From Heliophilum fasciatum (GTDB lineage: Bacteria > Bacillota > Desulfitobacteriia > Heliobacteriales > Heliobacteriaceae), in the NCBI RefSeq assembly GCF_004341395.1, contig NZ_SLXT01000012.1, forward strand, positions 1-64,000: a stretch of 64,000 nucleotides of DNA. The letters are read 5' to 3'. The position numbers and the translations under genes are program-made. This document shows, piece after piece, positions 29,864-64,000 of this stretch; positions within the stretch are counted from its first letter, which is position 1; every line of letters begins with the position of its first letter. Under the pieces are notes generated by a model. The model was not told where the DNA came from and did not search any database. It was given only the letters and a program-made list of their open reading frames with translations.

Positions 29864-30722
29864 TTACGCAAGCTGGCATCGTTTTTCATACGGTGTAAGC
29901 TCTGTATTTAATTGGATGCGATCGTAGTTATAAAATTGAATATAATCAGCGATCATCCTCCGAGCATCTGCATACGTCAAAGGCTTACTTCGGTAGATGC
30001 ACTCCGATTTAAGAGTTCCAAAAAACGTCTCTGCACAAGCATTATCCAAGCAATTACCACGTCTTGACATGGACGGAGTAATTCCGTATTCTTTGGTTAG
30101 GTTAAAATATGCCGTGGAAGTATATTGAAACCCTTGGTCGCTGTGGAGTGCAAGTCCACGAGCGACCTCTTCTTTTTTTTACGGCCATTTGAACGGTCTT
30201 GGTTACCAGATTCACTGTTTGTTCAGTTCCGGTCTCGAAGTGAACAATGAACCCATCATAGAGATCCTTGACCATCGAAAGGTATAGGACACCTTGTCCC
30301 GTATGAATGTATGATATATCGGTTACCCACTTCTGATTGGGCTGGCTGGCCTGAAAATCACGATTCAATAGATTCCCGTATCTATGAACTTCTTGACTAT
30401 ATTTTTTGTATTTCCGGCGGCGTCGAACTTCGGACAACAGGTTATATTGGTTCATGATACGTAAGAGTGCTTTATGATTAACAAGGAGCCCATGCTTACG
30501 TAGAAGCCAGATACGGACACGACGATACCCATAGGTTTTTTTGCTCTTTTCCTGGCAAATCGTGATCTTTTCAACGAGTACCATATCTTTATTTTCCTGA
30601 TCCTTTTTTCTCAGCCATGAGTAGTACCCACTTCTTGATACATCAAAAAATGAACACATTAACGTAATCGGATATTTGTCTTTAAAACGATAAATTACCC
30701 GGTATTTCACCGCTGCTTTCAC
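29864..30722 (-). pseudogene. IS3-family transposase OrfB, frameshifted
   Basis: Two pieces make one normal-length (about 285 residue) OrfB. The 5' piece (30722 down to about 30170) has the HTH_21-like start FFDVSRSGYYSWLRKK and the first catalytic Asp in WVTDISYIHTGQGVLYLSM. The 3' piece has, in another frame, HSDQGFQYTS (second Asp), SRRGNCLDNACAETFFGTLK (catalytic Glu) and ends EKRCQLA. The frames part at an A8 tract (30173-30180 on the plus strand as T8). One base removed would restore the frame. The start overlaps orfA and has its own GGAAGGAGGTG. Without slippage the enzyme lacks two of its three catalytic acids. Confidence 0.88.
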
Positions 30723-41226: not shown

Positions 41227-42078
41227 TTGGAACGTTTACCGGGTAAATATTTGATCATTATTCCGGCGTATAATGAGGCAGAAAATATCAGCTCCGTGTT
41301 GACGGAGCTACGGGCTGTGGTGCCTTGGGCCGATGTGGTCGTCATTGATGATGGATCGCGGGACGCTACGGCTGCCTTGGCGCGCCGGCACGGGGCGACG
41401 GTGATTACCCATCCGGTCAATTTACGCTATGGGGCGGCGCTGCAGACGGGCTTTAAGTATGCCCGTCGGCATGGTTATGATTTTGTTATTCAGTTTGACG
41501 GTGACGGGCAGCATGACCCGGCCAATATTGCTGTGATGGCGGAGGCGATGGCCACCACTGGTGCTGATATTGTCATTGGTTCGCGCTTTTTGAATGATCA
41601 AAAGCATACGAACTGGAAGCGCGGTCTGGGGATCAAAATGTTTTCGCTGATGATTCGGGCGCTGACGGGCCAACAAGTCAATGATCCCACGTCGGGGCTG
41701 CAACTGCTTAACCGGCGTGTCTACCAGTTTTACTCTTACGCCAATCAGTTTCCTGTCGATTTTCCTGATGCTAACGTGCTGGTCTTGATGATCTTGGCCG
41801 GCTTTAAGGTGACTGAGCGAGTGGCGTCGATCCGGGAGCGTTTGCATGGCGAGAGCATGCACAGCGGGTTCAAGGTCGTCAAGTATTTGGTGATCATGAT
41901 CTACAGCATTTTTATTGCGATTGTCAAAGGGCGGGCCTACCGGGGGAGTTTGGGCTTCGATGGGCCGACTTTGCCGGCATCGGTGGAACAAGTATCGGCG
42001 TCGACAACGGCCATGTCGAATGTACCGGCTACGCCATCGGGAGCGATGGCACCGGCGAAAGGGGGGGGCCAACGATGA
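41227..42078 (+). CDS. Glycosyltransferase family 2 (GtrB/DPM1-like)
   Basis: About 283 residues. LIIIPAYNEAENISSVLTEL, VVVIDDGSRDATAALA and the metal site FDGDGQHDPANI identify a GT-A enzyme of the dolichol-phosphate-mannose-synthase-like group. NDPTSGLQLLNRRVYQFYS and a C-terminal hydrophobic segment (YLVIMIYSIFIAIVKG) follow. I prefer TTG 41227, which has GAGGGGG at the right distance; GTG 41209 in frame is the alternative. The stop overlaps the DUF2304 gene by ATGA. Such pairs are common in Bacillota surface-glycan loci. Confidence 0.88.
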   Translation: MERLPGKYLIIIPAYNEAENISSVLTELRAVVPWADVVVIDDGSRDATAALARRHGATVITHPVNLRYGAALQTGFKYARRHGYDFVIQFDGDGQHDPANIAVMAEAMATTGADIVIGSRFLNDQKHTNWKRGLGIKMFSLMIRALTGQQVNDPTSGLQLLNRRVYQFYSYANQFPVDFPDANVLVLMILAGFKVTERVASIRERLHGESMHSGFKVVKYLVIMIYSIFIAIVKGRAYRGSLGFDGPTLPASVEQVSASTTAMSNVPATPSGAMAPAKGGGQR

Positions 42079-56071: not shown

Positions 56072-58402
56072 TTGGCCCGCGGCGGCCACAAGGAATGGCT
56101 CGGTATCACCCATGATCCTACGCTGGACAGCGCTGTGCTGGCCCACGAAGGCTACACCGAATTAAACGTAATCACGCCGATATTGCCCATCGGTATCCTT
56201 TTATATATCTGGAAAAAATTATGGCATGAAGACGCCGGCGGTTTTGACGGCCGATCGCGGTACTGGCTTACCGAAGGGCGCTGGCCAAGTCACGCAACGC
56301 AGGGGTGTAACGGGCAACCCAACCGTCAACGTAACCGTCAACCCAATCAGCAGAGAAGCTGGTGGACTGGTCCTCTGGATTGGGCAACGAAGCAATCGGC
56401 GTGGTGGAAGCAAAAAAGCCGCAGTTTTCTGGATGATCTGCAGGCATCATGGAATAACCGCCTGCCGGACCGGCGGGATGATCAACGGGATGATCACCGG
56501 CATGATCCAGCCATAAAACCGTGGCTAAGCCAAGTTATCGCCCTCTTACGCAAGGTTGATGCTCCCGCTGCCGGTGATCGGCAGCCCTATCCTGTACACA
56601 TCTACCGCATCAATCGCGAGCAAGGGGTACCCTTTACGGTGGAGCAAGCTCGGCAAGTAGCAATGGCAATGGAAGGCCGGTTGCTGTTTATGAATGAAGT
56701 AGAAAAAGCAGTAGCTGAATGTGTACAGGGTGCCCCATCCAATGGACTTCCCCTGGAAGATATTTTGCAGGTCTTAGCGTTGCTTGGCGTTATCCAAGTG
56801 TTTGCTTCGGTGGAGTTGAAGGCCCCGGGGCAGGGGCAGTGCATGCGCTGCGGTGAAACGGAAAACGTCTTGCTTAGTTCCTGTGTGCGTTGCGGCCGTA
56901 GCCACTGCATGGCCTGTGAAGCCTGTGCAGCTATGGGCGAAGCACGGCTGTGCCGTCCGCTGTACGGAATGGCCGGCGATGAGCAATGGCTGGAACGATG
57001 GGACCATGATGTGGAGCCACGGCTACGCCTGATTTGTCGGCCAAGCCGAACAGATAAGCAACGGGCGGCAGCGCCGGGATATTCGCCGAATGAACCACCG
57101 CCCGGTATGCACTGGCCCCAGTTGACCTTCAAGTTGACACCGGCCCAAGCAGCAGCCAGCCAGCGCGTCGAAGCGACGTTGATGCACCGAACCATGGCAA
57201 CACCAGGTGCCGTTGGCAGAGTCACAAGCGAAGCCACCCCCATCCATGACATCGCCGCCACCGATACGCGCGAGGAGCCCGGCAGCCCCCAGGGCGTTCT
57301 GGTCTGGGCCGCCTGTGGTGCTGGCAAAACCGAAGTTGTCTTTGGCAGCATCGCCCAAGTCCTGCGCGCCGGCGGACGGGTGCTTTTTGCCATTCCGCGC
57401 CGCGATGTGGTGCTGGAACTGGAGCCGCGCATTCAACAAGCCTTTCCCGGTGCCAGCGTCGGCGCACTTTACGGCGGAAGCTCAGAAAAATACATCCGGC
57501 GCCAGATCGTCATCGCCACCACGCACCAAGCGATTCGCTGTTTTCACAGCTTTGACTTGGTTGTTTTAGATGAAGCCGACGCCTTTCCCTACCAAGGCAG
57601 TGCGATGCTCCACCAAGCGGTCTTGCGTGCACGGAAACGACAAGGCCGTTCGGTCTATATGACGGCCACACCCGATATAGTATTAAAAGAAGCCGTTGCT
57701 GCCCGGCAATTGGCGCTGGTGACCATTCCCGCCCGCCATCATGGCCGACCGCTGCCCGAGCCGGAGATTTTACTGGAGAAGAAATGGAACTGGCAAAAGG
57801 ATCAATTGATTTTCCCCGAAAAACTCCTGCACTTTTTGCATCGCAGCGTGGAAGGCGACGTAGCGCAGGTCTTTCTTTTTGTTCCTTCCGTTTTTTTAGC
57901 GCAGCGCGTCGGGACATCCCTGCAAGTTGCGACCCGCTTACCTCCCTTTAACGATTTTAAAGGGATCTGGGTCGAGTACAGCCATTCCCGCGATCCGGAA
58001 CGAGAAAGCAAACGACAGCGGTTCAGCCGCCAGGCCTTTCCGATCTTTGTGACGACGGCGATCATGGAGCGCGGGATCACCGTTCCGCGAGCCAACGTCG
58101 TTGTTCTCTTTGCGGAAAATGAACGAATTTTCGATGAACGGGCATTGATCCAGATGGCAGGACGAGCCGGGCGCTCCAGCGAACGCCCCGACGGTACCGT
58201 ATGGTTTGTCGGCACTCGCAAGACATCGGCGATGCAAGAAGCATTAACCAGCATCCGCTGGCTTAATGAAGAGGCCCGAAAAAAAGGATTTTTGGCCTCC
58301 TCCATCACTCAGCAACCGGCAGAAACAACACAAAAGGAGGATAACGTATGGGCGCATGGGATAGTGGATGGACGATTGCCCGGTCTCCGCGAGCACTGGT
58401 AG
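56072..58402 (+). CDS. comFA: ComFA-like late-competence helicase with long N-terminal extension
   Basis: 776 residues from TTG 56072, which follows GAGGAG and the degU terminator. A zinc-finger segment at about 255-295 has CMRCGETENVLLSSCVRC and CEACAAMGEARLC. The DEAD-like helicase core follows: Walker A AACGAGKTE near 413, DEAD in VVLDEADAFPY near 500, and the C-terminal IQMAGRAGRSSERPDG near 693. ComFA drives uptake of single-stranded DNA through the competence channel. It is much longer than B. subtilis ComFA (463 residues); the first 250 residues are poorly conserved and Gln/Arg-rich. comFB is absent here. Confidence 0.88.
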   Translation: MARGGHKEWLGITHDPTLDSAVLAHEGYTELNVITPILPIGILLYIWKKLWHEDAGGFDGRSRYWLTEGRWPSHATQGCNGQPNRQRNRQPNQQRSWWTGPLDWATKQSAWWKQKSRSFLDDLQASWNNRLPDRRDDQRDDHRHDPAIKPWLSQVIALLRKVDAPAAGDRQPYPVHIYRINREQGVPFTVEQARQVAMAMEGRLLFMNEVEKAVAECVQGAPSNGLPLEDILQVLALLGVIQVFASVELKAPGQGQCMRCGETENVLLSSCVRCGRSHCMACEACAAMGEARLCRPLYGMAGDEQWLERWDHDVEPRLRLICRPSRTDKQRAAAPGYSPNEPPPGMHWPQLTFKLTPAQAAASQRVEATLMHRTMATPGAVGRVTSEATPIHDIAATDTREEPGSPQGVLVWAACGAGKTEVVFGSIAQVLRAGGRVLFAIPRRDVVLELEPRIQQAFPGASVGALYGGSSEKYIRRQIVIATTHQAIRCFHSFDLVVLDEADAFPYQGSAMLHQAVLRARKRQGRSVYMTATPDIVLKEAVAARQLALVTIPARHHGRPLPEPEILLEKKWNWQKDQLIFPEKLLHFLHRSVEGDVAQVFLFVPSVFLAQRVGTSLQVATRLPPFNDFKGIWVEYSHSRDPERESKRQRFSRQAFPIFVTTAIMERGITVPRANVVVLFAENERIFDERALIQMAGRAGRSSERPDGTVWFVGTRKTSAMQEALTSIRWLNEEARKKGFLASSITQQPAETTQKEDNVWAHGIVDGRLPGLREHW

Positions 58403-59376
58403 ATGTACAAAGTGTCAATCCCAAACGAGCAACCCCCATCTGGAAAACCGCCTGGGCGCAGGTGTTTCGTTCCGCGGCGGACACGGTCTTTCCGACGGCG
58501 CAGGAATGCTCCTTTTGCCAGCAGCCGCTCAACGGGGATACACGGACAGGCTTATGCCGGCACTGCCTGACCGATCTGGATCTGGAGCGCCAGGGGCTAA
58601 ACCAGTGCATGACATGCGGCAAATACATCGATGCGGAAGCAACCACCGTGCCTAACAATGCGCCCAATATCGCATCCAATGTAGCACCTAACAATGCACC
58701 CAATATCGCATCCAATGTAGCACCTAACAATGCACCCAATATCGCATCCAATGTTGCACCTAACAATGCACCCAACATCACACCTAACAATGCGTCCACC
58801 ACAGCGATCAACGGTAATGAATGCAGCGACTGTCTCCGCCAAAAGCCGCTCTTTGCGGCGGCCTGGAACATCGGTCCCTATCGCGGGCTCCTGCGCCAGA
58901 GTCTGCACGATCTGAAATACCAAGGACAACGGGCCAAAGCAGAACCGCTGGGCCGCTTGATGGCAACCATCTTATGGCGCAACGTACCGAATGCCACCTG
59001 GACCCAGCCGTGGGGCGACTGGCAACAAGCCCATTTGATCCCGATCCCCGTACATCCACAAAAATTACAAACGCGCAATTACAATCAAGCCCTCTTGCTG
59101 GCCCAAGCCATCAGCGCCGAGACGGGGCTGCTCGTCAATGATCGGCTGGGGCGGCGCAGCGACACCGAAGCGCAGGCCCATCTGACGCGGCAGCAACGTA
59201 TGGAAAACCTGCGTGGCCAATTCTACGTTCTTCCCGGCGCATCGGCGCCAACAGCGATTATCGTCGATGATATATACACAACCGGAGCGACCGTAGCCGA
59301 AGCCACCCGCGTTTTGCGGCAGGCCGGCTATGTACGTGTAGTGGTTCTTACGGCAGCGGCCGGTATCGGTTATTAA
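58348..59376 (+). CDS. comFC: ComFC/ComF phosphoribosyltransferase-like competence protein
   Basis: 342 residues, versus about 240 usually. Zinc-binding cysteines are in CSFCQQPL, CRHCLTDL, CMTCGKYI and CSDCLRQKPLF. The last two are separated by a 36-bp in-frame repeat (about residues 100-150). The phosphoribosyltransferase-like core has YNQALLLAQAISAETGL, the DLTRQQRMENLRGQF-like segment, and the PRPP loop AIIVDDIYTTGATVAEA. It is needed for DNA uptake with ComFA. ATG 58348 has AAAGGAGG and lies inside comFA, which it overlaps by 55 bp. Confidence 0.9.
   Translation: MGAWDSGWTIARSPRALVDVQSVNPKRATPIWKTAWAQVFRSAADTVFPTAQECSFCQQPLNGDTRTGLCRHCLTDLDLERQGLNQCMTCGKYIDAEATTVPNNAPNIASNVAPNNAPNIASNVAPNNAPNIASNVAPNNAPNITPNNASTTAINGNECSDCLRQKPLFAAAWNIGPYRGLLRQSLHDLKYQGQRAKAEPLGRLMATILWRNVPNATWTQPWGDWQQAHLIPIPVHPQKLQTRNYNQALLLAQAISAETGLLVNDRLGRRSDTEAQAHLTRQQRMENLRGQFYVLPGASAPTAIIVDDIYTTGATVAEATRVLRQAGYVRVVVLTAAAGIGY
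58651..58800 (+). repeat. 36-bp in-frame tandem repeat in comFC
   Basis: Three full 36-bp units (58651-58686, 58687-58722, 58723-58758) and partial ones follow, encoding a 12-residue PNNAPNIASNVA-type unit. The unit differs from the 36-bp array at 39391. Confidence 0.95.
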
Positions 59377-60575: not shown

Positions 60576-60603
60576 TAAAGTTTTGGCGTGCTGTTCACGA
60601 TAA
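60576..60603 (+). promoter_or_regulatory. Sigma-28 (SigD/FliA)-type promoter of flgM
   Basis: TAAAGTTT (60576-60583) and CACGATAA (60596-60603) are 12 bp apart. The flagellar sigma consensus is TAAAGTTT, 11 bp, GCCGATAA, so one arm is perfect and the other matches six of eight. It lies about 57 bp before the flgM start. Confidence 0.7.
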
Positions 60604-60659
60604 TGATCGAAAGAGCTCATAAACTCCAAAGGTAAGGGAAGGCAAAGGAGTTGAACACG

Positions 60660-60963
60660 ATGAGAATTCCAGCCGGGATCAGTCAGTTATTGCAAATTTA
60701 CTCCACTGACCGTACCAATAAACCCAAAGATGCACCCCCCCCTGTCGACATCAGGGGCATCGAAGCGCGACTCCTTTGCAGTTTCCGATGAGGCGCGAGA
60801 GTTACACCAAGCGCTCCGGGCGGTGCATCAATCGCCCGATCCGCGCATGGAGCGCATCGCAGCGTTACGAGAAAAGATTGCCAATGGCACCTACCGGATT
60901 TCCGCCGAAGACATCGCTGACAAAATGATCGAGCACAACCTCGCCGACCGCAAAGAAATATGA
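60660..60963 (+). pseudogene. flgM: FlgM anti-sigma-28 factor, frameshifted at a poly-C tract
   Basis: ATG 60660 has AAAGGAG nine bases upstream and opens MRIPAGISQLLQIYSTDRTN, a plausible FlgM start. The frame then enters a C8 tract (60734-60741) and ends early. The C-terminal FlgM signature lies one frame over: SFAVSDEARELHQALRAV, RIAALREKIANGTYRISAED, IADKMIEHNL. One C fewer restores a 101-residue protein. FlgM binds and inhibits sigma-28 until the hook is finished. Options are reversible phase variation, a fixed mutation or a sequencing error. If translation started at ATG 60730 in the C-terminal frame, 77 residues would remain, including the sigma-binding part. Confidence 0.85.
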
Positions 60964-60979: not shown

Positions 60980-61528
60980 ATGCCGATGAGAACACAGGTC
61001 CCCTCAGCAACGTCCGATCTCGCGGACGCTACCTGGGAGGACCTTTTTGAGCGATTGAACCAATCGCTCAGTATGCATGCTGACCTGCTGCAGGCCATGG
61101 TGCACCTTGCCGAACTCCAAGAAAAAGCACTTTTTCGCGCCAGCTTGGAGGAGATCAAAAAGATCACCGCCGCCCAAGAAATCCTTGTGGCGCGGGCCGG
61201 TAAAGTGGAAGAACAGCGCCAACGATACACGGCCCATCTCGTACGGTTTCCGCGCTTTGCCGACTGTCAAACGCTCGCGCAGATCGTGGCCGTCGCACCG
61301 CCGGATAGAAAAACGGCATTGGAAACGTGCATGGGCCAATTGCAGCAACAAACCAAGATCCTAAGAGAAAAAACAGCACGCAATGAAGAAATGCTCCAGC
61401 AAACGCTGAAGTTTTTCCAGCATTTTATGAATACCATGTGCGCGGCCACCGAAGCACCGACAGCGGGCTACGGGCGTGGGGGAGATATGTCCGGTGAGCA
61501 GCGGGCATTTTTCAGCAAACGCATCTAA
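60980..61528 (+). CDS. flgN: FlgN-family flagellar chaperone
   Basis: 182 residues, nearly all helical. LFERLNQSLSMHADLLQAMV and LAELQEKALFRASLEEIKKI are typical of the FlgN antiparallel coil, with a long middle helix (AQEILVARAGKVEEQRQRYT). It would hold the hook-filament junction proteins FlgK and FlgL before export. AAAGGTGAG lies before the ATG. It follows flgM by 16 bp and precedes flgK by 50 bp, the standard order. Confidence 0.88.
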   Translation: MPMRTQVPSATSDLADATWEDLFERLNQSLSMHADLLQAMVHLAELQEKALFRASLEEIKKITAAQEILVARAGKVEEQRQRYTAHLVRFPRFADCQTLAQIVAVAPPDRKTALETCMGQLQQQTKILREKTARNEEMLQQTLKFFQHFMNTMCAATEAPTAGYGRGGDMSGEQRAFFSKRI

Positions 61529-61578: not shown

Positions 61579-63090
61579 ATGGTATCGACGTTTTTTGGCT
61601 TGGAAATTGCCCGCCGCGGCGTATTGACCGGTAAAATGGGCTTAGATGTGACCAGCCACAACGTTGCCAATGCGAATACGGAAGGATACTCACGGCAAAC
61701 AGCCAACATCAGTGCGACGCCGTCCGTCTATGTACCGGGCATGAAACCGGCTTCCTGGCCCGGACAGATCGGCACCGGCGCGGAAGTGGCGGAGATCAAA
61801 CGCTATCGCGACGACTTTCTCGATCGCCAGTACCGGAACGAAAATGCCCGACTCGGCGAATGGCAAAGCCGTGCCGATACAACCCAGCGCATTCAGATGC
61901 TGCTCAATGAAACCGGTGAAACGGGCCTTTCCAAAGTGATCGACCAGTTCTGGGAGTCAATGCAGGATCTGACGGCCAACCCCAACCAATCCGGTGCCCG
62001 CAGTGTCGTGGTGCAGCGCGGGAAAGCCCTGGTCGAAACGTTCAACCACTTGGACCGTCAGCTCACGCAGTTACAAGATAGTATCAACGATGACATTATC
62101 GGTAAAGTTCGTGACATCAATAACTATGCCGATCAAATCGTTACCCTCAACGGCCAGATTATGCGCATTGAAGCCAAACAAGGTGAACATGCCAACGATC
62201 TGCGAGACAAACGGGATCTCTTGCTCGACAAGCTGTCGAAGATTGTGGGGATCGAAGTGACCGAAGATACAACCGGCATGATCAACGTGTCGATCGGTAA
62301 CTTTGACCTTGTGACTGCGCTGGAACGGGATAGTTTTATTTTGGATCCTGAGCCCATCAACTTGACGGACCCGTATAGCACGCTGAACATCCGCTGGGCC
62401 AGTTCCTCTGGTATTGTGGAAATTACCGGCGGTGAGCTTTATGGTTTACTGGAATCGCGGAACCCAACCGGCGTCGTCGTTGACACCCGCAATCGACTGA
62501 ATAACATGGTGAAGGTGTTTAGTGCGGAATTCAACCGCATTCATGAACAAGGTGTTACACTCGATCAGATCAACAAGGGGACGGCCAATGCGGCGTCGGG
62601 GATCAAATTTTTTGTTCAGACCAATAGTGCTGGGGCACTGATTGATCCCTTGGACATTGCCAATATCAAGATTAACCCCCTGCTGGATGATCCGGCGCAG
62701 ATTGCAGCCGGACGTCCAGAAACGTATGATCAGATCCCGGCCGCTACCACGACCTTTGAAGGTGACGGACGCAACGCTTTGAAACTCTCCCAGTTAAAAT
62801 ATGCGAAACTCGACTTTACTCCGGCTTCGACCATGGATGGCTTTTACAACACCTTAATCGGTGATCTGGGTGTTGCGGGGCAGCAGAATACGCGTATGAA
62901 GGATAATCAGACTACATTAACCAACACGATCAAAAATCAACGGAACTCCATATCTTCCGTATCGCTCGATGAAGAGATGACCAACATGATTCGCTTTCAG
63001 CAAGCCTTCAACGCGGCTTCGCGCATGGTGTCGGCGATGGATGAGATGCTGGACAAGTTGATCAACGGCATGGGTGTGGTTGGACGGTAA
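61579..63090 (+). CDS. flgK: Flagellar hook-associated protein 1
   Basis: 503 residues. The N-terminus has the flagellar rod/hook signature LEIARRGVLTGKMGLDVTSH, NVANANTEGYSRQ. The C-terminus closes with SVSLDEEMTNMIRFQQAFNA and a coil ending DKLINGMGVVGR. Both ends form the coiled coil that packs in the filament axis. FlgK joins hook to filament. ATG 61579 has GGGGGAGCAGG upstream. The middle domain is the usual variable part. Confidence 0.96.
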   Translation: MVSTFFGLEIARRGVLTGKMGLDVTSHNVANANTEGYSRQTANISATPSVYVPGMKPASWPGQIGTGAEVAEIKRYRDDFLDRQYRNENARLGEWQSRADTTQRIQMLLNETGETGLSKVIDQFWESMQDLTANPNQSGARSVVVQRGKALVETFNHLDRQLTQLQDSINDDIIGKVRDINNYADQIVTLNGQIMRIEAKQGEHANDLRDKRDLLLDKLSKIVGIEVTEDTTGMINVSIGNFDLVTALERDSFILDPEPINLTDPYSTLNIRWASSSGIVEITGGELYGLLESRNPTGVVVDTRNRLNNMVKVFSAEFNRIHEQGVTLDQINKGTANAASGIKFFVQTNSAGALIDPLDIANIKINPLLDDPAQIAAGRPETYDQIPAATTTFEGDGRNALKLSQLKYAKLDFTPASTMDGFYNTLIGDLGVAGQQNTRMKDNQTTLTNTIKNQRNSISSVSLDEEMTNMIRFQQAFNAASRMVSAMDEMLDKLINGMGVVGR

Positions 63091-63155: not shown

Positions 63156-64000
63156 TTGCGCATCACACAATCGATGATCTCCAATAACTTCATGAATAAT
63201 TTGAACTCGATCAACCAGCAGATGGAGAAAACGCAGTATCAATTGGGCTCTGGTCAGCTCTATCGCTTACCGGAGGACGGACCGACGGAAACTGTGAAGG
63301 CGATGGTCTACAGTTCCACACTTACCCAAGTGAACAAGTATATTGACAACATCCGGGAAGCGCGGATTTGGTTAGATAACAGCGATGCGGCCCTGAACGA
63401 AGTCAACAACGTGATGCAACGGATTAATGAATTGTTTGTGGAAGCGAACACCGATACGCTGGGGATCAAGGAACGGCAAGCCATCGCCAAAGAAATCAAC
63501 GAGCTGACGCAACATATCAGTTCGGTGGCCAATACAAGTGTAGCCGGACGGAGTATTTTTGCCGGCACCAAAACAGAAGTAACGCCGAGCCAGCAAGATC
63601 CCGTAACAGGGGAGTGGCGTTGGCTCGGCAACAGCAACCCCATCAATGTGGAATTTGATGCCAATGTGACCGTCCAAATCAACACGATCGGGCAAAAGCT
63701 CTTTGCCACACCGGTCGGGGCCAGCGGCAAAGACTTGATGAACTTCCTGCAGGACATGACGGCGAAGCTGGAAAAGGGCGAGCGCGTCGCAGGCAATACA
63801 GAACTTGGTCAATTCATGGATGTGCTCTTGCAGGAACGAGCCGCGATCGGGGGCCGCGTCAATCGCGTGGACTTTACCGAAAACCGCCTGCAAGACTTTG
63901 AGATCAGCGTCAAGGATCTGCTCTCCAAGACGGCCAATGCCGATATGGCCGAAGTGTACACGCAGATGAGCATGCAGCAAAATATCTATCGGGCAGCGCT
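63156..64000 (+). CDS. flgL: Flagellar hook-associated protein 3, N-terminal part
   Basis: At least 281 residues, cut by the window end. LRITQSMISNNFMNNLNSIN at the start and YQLGSGQLYRLPEDGP match the FlgL N-terminus, with the flagellin-like coil continuing IRQARIWLDNSDAALNEVNN-type heptads (the local sequence is IREARIWLDNSDAALNEVNN). The start is TTG 63156 with AAAGGGGTGA just upstream. It is the junction protein between FlgK and flagellin. The frame is open at base 64000. Confidence 0.94.
   Translation, partial: MRITQSMISNNFMNNLNSINQQMEKTQYQLGSGQLYRLPEDGPTETVKAMVYSSTLTQVNKYIDNIREARIWLDNSDAALNEVNNVMQRINELFVEANTDTLGIKERQAIAKEINELTQHISSVANTSVAGRSIFAGTKTEVTPSQQDPVTGEWRWLGNSNPINVEFDANVTVQINTIGQKLFATPVGASGKDLMNFLQDMTAKLEKGERVAGNTELGQFMDVLLQERAAIGGRVNRVDFTENRLQDFEISVKDLLSKTANADMAEVYTQMSMQQNIYRAA

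Follow-up and report, generated by a model that had tools for sequence, protein, structure and literature searches.

Organisation of the flgM locus

Heliophilum fasciatum is a photosynthetic soil bacterium. The stretch of DNA analysed here (the window; 64,000 nucleotides, positions 1 to 64,000 of contig NZ_SLXT01000012.1) contains towards its end a flgM-flgN-flgK-flgL neighbourhood on the forward strand, in which FlgN was identified by Pfam and FlgK and FlgL by NCBIfam, with the following features:

60576..60603, + strand: sigma-28-like promoter, TAAA (60576)-N16-CACGATAA (60596-60603); weak evidence alone
60644..60650, + strand: Shine-Dalgarno sequence AAAGGAG, 9 nt 5' of the ATG (from sequence)
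60660..60791, + strand: 5' part of flgM, 43 aa, comprising 25 native residues followed by prolines and out-of-frame residues
60730..60963, + strand: 3' part of flgM in another frame, with the internal ATG 60730 (from the reading frames)
60735..60742, + strand: C8 tract at the break (from sequence and the tract listing)
60769..60933, + strand: FlgM domain PF04316, complete (profile match)
60980..61528, + strand: flgN, intact (PF05130, E 3e-17)
61579..63090, + strand: flgK, intact (TIGR02492)
63159..63998, + strand: flgL, continuing beyond the window end (TIGR02550)

The original prediction, made from the sequence of the window, described flgM as a gene with a well-placed start, a ribosome-binding site and a normal N-terminus but with its sigma-binding half one frame over, and each of these elements was recovered. 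With AAAGGAG ahead of it, the ATG at 60660 opens a frame that runs to a stop at 60791, and the 43-aa product begins MRIPAGISQLLQIYSTDRTNK, which can be aligned with the N-termini of FlgM proteins of the family (MKISSNQIQNILKMYGVDRVEK and similar). The profile search matched all 55 of the 55 positions of PF04316 (69 bits, E 1.2e-18), placing the gene in the FlgM family by its conserved domain, and this match sits in a frame other than that of ATG 60660, in line with the predicted loss of the anti-sigma-28 domain. The +1 frame change coincides with a run of eight C residues, as had been claimed, although the run lies at 60735-60742 and not, one base off, at 60734-60741. In this assembly no single open frame leads from the N-terminus through the sigma-binding half; with one C fewer both halves fall into one frame, bearing out the proposal that seven C would restore the gene. 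The sigma-28-type promoter that had been noted is also present, but it carries little weight because such matches are common in the window (16 of comparable quality, against 9.75 expected from mononucleotide shuffles).

FlgM in related genomes

FlgM was found in 58 of the 61 genomes searched (the present genome included), and an alignment query returned 12 loci and named the family. The comparison of the tract across relatives, which the original prediction had called for, gave a single frame holding both N-terminus and domain in all 29 relatives read, but there was no tract to compare: none of the 29, six other genomes of the family among them, carries a C-tract at this site. The species and genus are represented in the comparison set by one genome, and Heliorestis acidaminivorans and Heliobacterium mobile belong to the family. 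With the C-terminal half of FlgM alone as query, a protein scan across public genomes returned no match.

Interruption of mutS by an insertion sequence

MutS1 (TIGR01070) is encoded by a sole gene in this genome, and that gene was found only as two pieces (C32:25813-27008 and C47:1-1689), each of which runs into insertion-sequence sequence. Model positions 2-351 come from the right edge of C32, positions 348-839 from the left edge of C47. The genome contains the right end of the element (AGACAGACTC) at 16 places and its left end (GAGTCCGTC) at 16 places, contig edges in nearly every case. TCTTA stands on both flanks of the element in mutS, an apparent 5-bp target duplication, and the MutS frame is continuous across it (NARDLL-SLADSLALLP); the insertion spans two contigs and is deduced from their edges, not read through. 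Both halves of mutS are otherwise open, which suggests that the insertion is recent. The gene for MutL is whole (643 aa); mutS, ending in insertion sequence on both pieces, is the inactivated member of the pair by which a mutator lineage may be recognised. In seven of the eight other family genomes mutS lies in a single frame. A frame change away from any homopolymer divides mutS in one relative as well, probably Heliorestis convoluta (C1:640358-643047).

Homopolymer tracts across the genome

All 79 distinct C/G tracts of at least 7 were examined in the genome, a single draft assembly of 3.14 Mb (3,142,229 bp) in 73 contigs, with sequence read in segments surrounding the tracts and at several named loci. 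Tracts of 8 or more number only 14, against about 60 by a rough estimate from base composition, so the flgM C8 is unusual and does not come from an enriched class; the 14 are spread over unrelated genes and intergenic sites, with no concentration in flagellar or surface genes. Three of the 79 clearly break genes: flgM, an esterase gene (C8 at C6:25695-25702) and a hybrid histidine kinase gene (C7 at C16:39083-39089). Pfam places Esterase in the second half of the esterase gene and confirms the split of the kinase gene, with HisKA on one side of the break and HATPase plus receiver on the other. All three tracts exceed by one C the length that would keep the frame. These counts of broken genes are lower bounds, in the control genomes too, because automatic frameshift detection missed flgM and, at first settings, the esterase. 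Of the remaining tracts, about 40 are coding and lie in one continuous frame, five of them of length 8.

Two of the seven coding tracts of 8 are therefore broken in Heliophilum fasciatum, against not one among the 29 or more coding C8/G8 tracts of five mutS-intact heliobacterial relatives (2/7 vs 0/29, Fisher p ~0.03, on a small sample of genomes that differ in G+C). No A/T tract was found to break a gene clearly by error in the ~450 kb sampled (overlaps included).

Several other flagged frame changes were set aside: those at a sucC/sucD-like pair and at a small gene preceding accD were taken for normal gene overlaps or starts, as were those in the control genomes except for one case, and that at window position 30173 is likely to belong to an IS transposase. 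Where a glycosyltransferase gene meets the gene that follows it, a G8 tract (42061-42068) can act as the ribosome-binding site of the latter, and a change in its length would alter the glycosyltransferase C-terminus.

Origin of the flgM frame break

On balance, the break probably represents a real one-base insertion in flgM, produced by slippage in the C tract and arisen or persisting through lost mismatch repair. An insertion sequence would have cut mutS in two, leaving a lineage deprived of mismatch repair, and replication slippage would then have added one C to the flgM tract; from the C8 allele the ribosome would yield a 43-aa peptide devoid of the sigma-28-binding part, FlgM function would be lost or strongly reduced, and the sigma-D-dependent late flagellar genes would lose their brake. 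This supposes that the cells really carry eight C and that the loss of mutS came first. In Vibrio, single-base indels become 334- to 473-fold more frequent once mutS is deleted; most of them fall in homopolymers, and the effect grows with homopolymer length (PMC5854121). Heliophilum fasciatum would resemble such mutators in having single-base indels at the longest homopolymers of its genome together with an inactivated mutS; unlike theirs, which is measured, its mutator state would follow from the insertion-sequence-split gene. Against slippage, the three breaks share a direction, which fits systematic error equally well; the set of relatives compared is small and its genomes differ in G+C; and the mutS insertion is known from contig edges. 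In addition, FlgM is among the proteins reported from another assembly of the species (3,141,306 bp, 75 contigs; PMC9147875), which could reflect an intact gene or just the 3' frame. That published assembly and the present one are different files, and the length of the flgM tract is known from the present one.

The caution about sequencing error in the original prediction was fair. An error of sequencing or assembly, in which flgM is intact in the cells and the tract has been read with one C in excess, is the main rival to mutator slippage, though we regard it as rather unlikely. It would suit a single draft assembly in 73 contigs, three broken tracts that are all one base too long, and the FlgM reported from the other assembly (PMC9147875). 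Random miscalling, however, should have struck more of the ~40 coding C/G tracts of at least 7 that read through, and the five of length 8 among these indicate that such tracts are not always miscalled. No A/T tract in the sample clearly breaks a gene by error, and an independent biological cause exists in the disruption of mutS; three events in one direction nevertheless leave miscalling some probability. The proposal that the tract is an evolved contingency locus, switching FlgM and hence the late flagellar genes, was not supported as a selected switch and appears improbable. Homopolymer switches do operate elsewhere in flgR/flgS, flhA and fliP (PMC3930126, PMC3928116), and the site would be reversible in a mutS-defective background, but long poly-C tracts are scarce here (14 runs of at least 8 C or G in 3.14 Mb) and fall in unrelated genes and intergenic sites; the tract is not conserved in the relatives read, and surface or motility genes show no enrichment of long tracts. 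For a bacterium with working repair, C8 is moreover a short tract to serve as a contingency locus, and most relatives keep mutS, so that slippage is no habit of the family. With mutS split, mutator slippage is a simpler cause than an evolved switch, and it leaves the flgM site physically reversible: reversion of the tract by slippage in a mutS-defective cell is physically plausible and needs no such switch.

Two further explanations would leave the cells with some FlgM, and both seem very unlikely. One is translational recoding, in which +1 slippage of a proline tRNA on CCC CCC CCU would make full-length FlgM, the frame break then being tolerated or having a regulatory role; the required shift is indeed +1, these are the zero-frame codons, and CCC-C is documented as +1-prone, with E. 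coli showing up to ~1% beside the start codon (PMC4519876), so that slippage at a low level may occur. The motif, however, occurs in no relative read and has no conserved stimulator, and natural rates deep inside a gene would yield very little FlgM. The other would make the mutation nearly silent by initiation at the internal ATG 60730, which the original prediction had named as a possible source of the C-terminal half and which does open a 77-aa frame containing the entire PF04316 domain; no Shine-Dalgarno sequence was found at a usable distance upstream, and the product would be deprived of the N-terminal part. In other bacteria the N-terminal part of FlgM serves export. Taken together, the earlier account of the flgM break is partly supported.

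Expected consequences for flagellar control

In B. subtilis and Salmonella, FlgM keeps sigma-D inactive until the hook is complete. With the FlgM domain out of frame, unrestrained expression of the late flagellar genes would be expected from the sequence. The fla/che operon, FliA included, looks intact in the ORF map, which leaves no evident assembly defect for FlgM loss to relieve, and the idea that flgM was lost as a suppressor of a broken flagellar gene was therefore dropped. In swrA or efp mutants of B. subtilis, Phag expression, which depends on sigma-D, recovers in part when flgM is lost (PMC6613710); those flgM mutants were engineered, whereas the Heliophilum flgM is a natural allele with no obvious assembly defect to suppress.

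The flagellar homopolymer frameshift switches of C. jejuni (flgR/flgS), C. coli (flhA) and H. pylori (fliP) offer a further comparison (PMC3930126, PMC3928116), and in C. jejuni homopolymer switching has been linked to absent mismatch repair (PMC3928116, PMC3930126). What they share with flgM is a flagellar gene disrupted by a one-base length change within a coding homopolymer. Those switches, however, have been shown to revert and to vary between colonies, while the Heliophilum flgM is known from one sequence; and the target here is an anti-sigma factor, whose loss should raise late gene expression and not stop it.

Cells of Heliophilum fasciatum form motile bundles and spreading colonies, ascribed to flagellar intertwining (PMC9147875). 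That bundle swimming, the hallmark of the type strain, stems in part from FlgM loss by slippage in a mutS-disrupted lineage, with the tract accidentally toggling FlgM in culture, is a speculative suggestion to which we attach little credence. If the slippage account is true, the sequenced strain of a photosynthetic genus would be a mutator with altered flagellar control, and any trait deduced from its genome, be it motility or an apparent pseudogene, would have to be verified in other stocks. More generally, a mutS insertion can make ordinary short tracts unstable in the absence of any evolved switch, and a candidate phase-variable tract should be judged alongside the mismatch-repair state of its genome.

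Other features near flgM

The flgM Shine-Dalgarno region (60642-60653) is predicted to form a 12-bp helix with the gene's own coding sequence (60768-60779); a helix of this length was reached in 3 of 2000 shuffles (MFE z -2.0) and was not seen among the six family relatives checked. Two tandem YvyF-like genes (TIGR03826; 59460-59933 and 60076-60507), both scoring under the curated cut-off, lie 5' of flgM, and in a ComF-like gene (58348-59376) NNAPNIASNVAP-type repeats form an in-frame array ahead of the phosphoribosyltransferase part.
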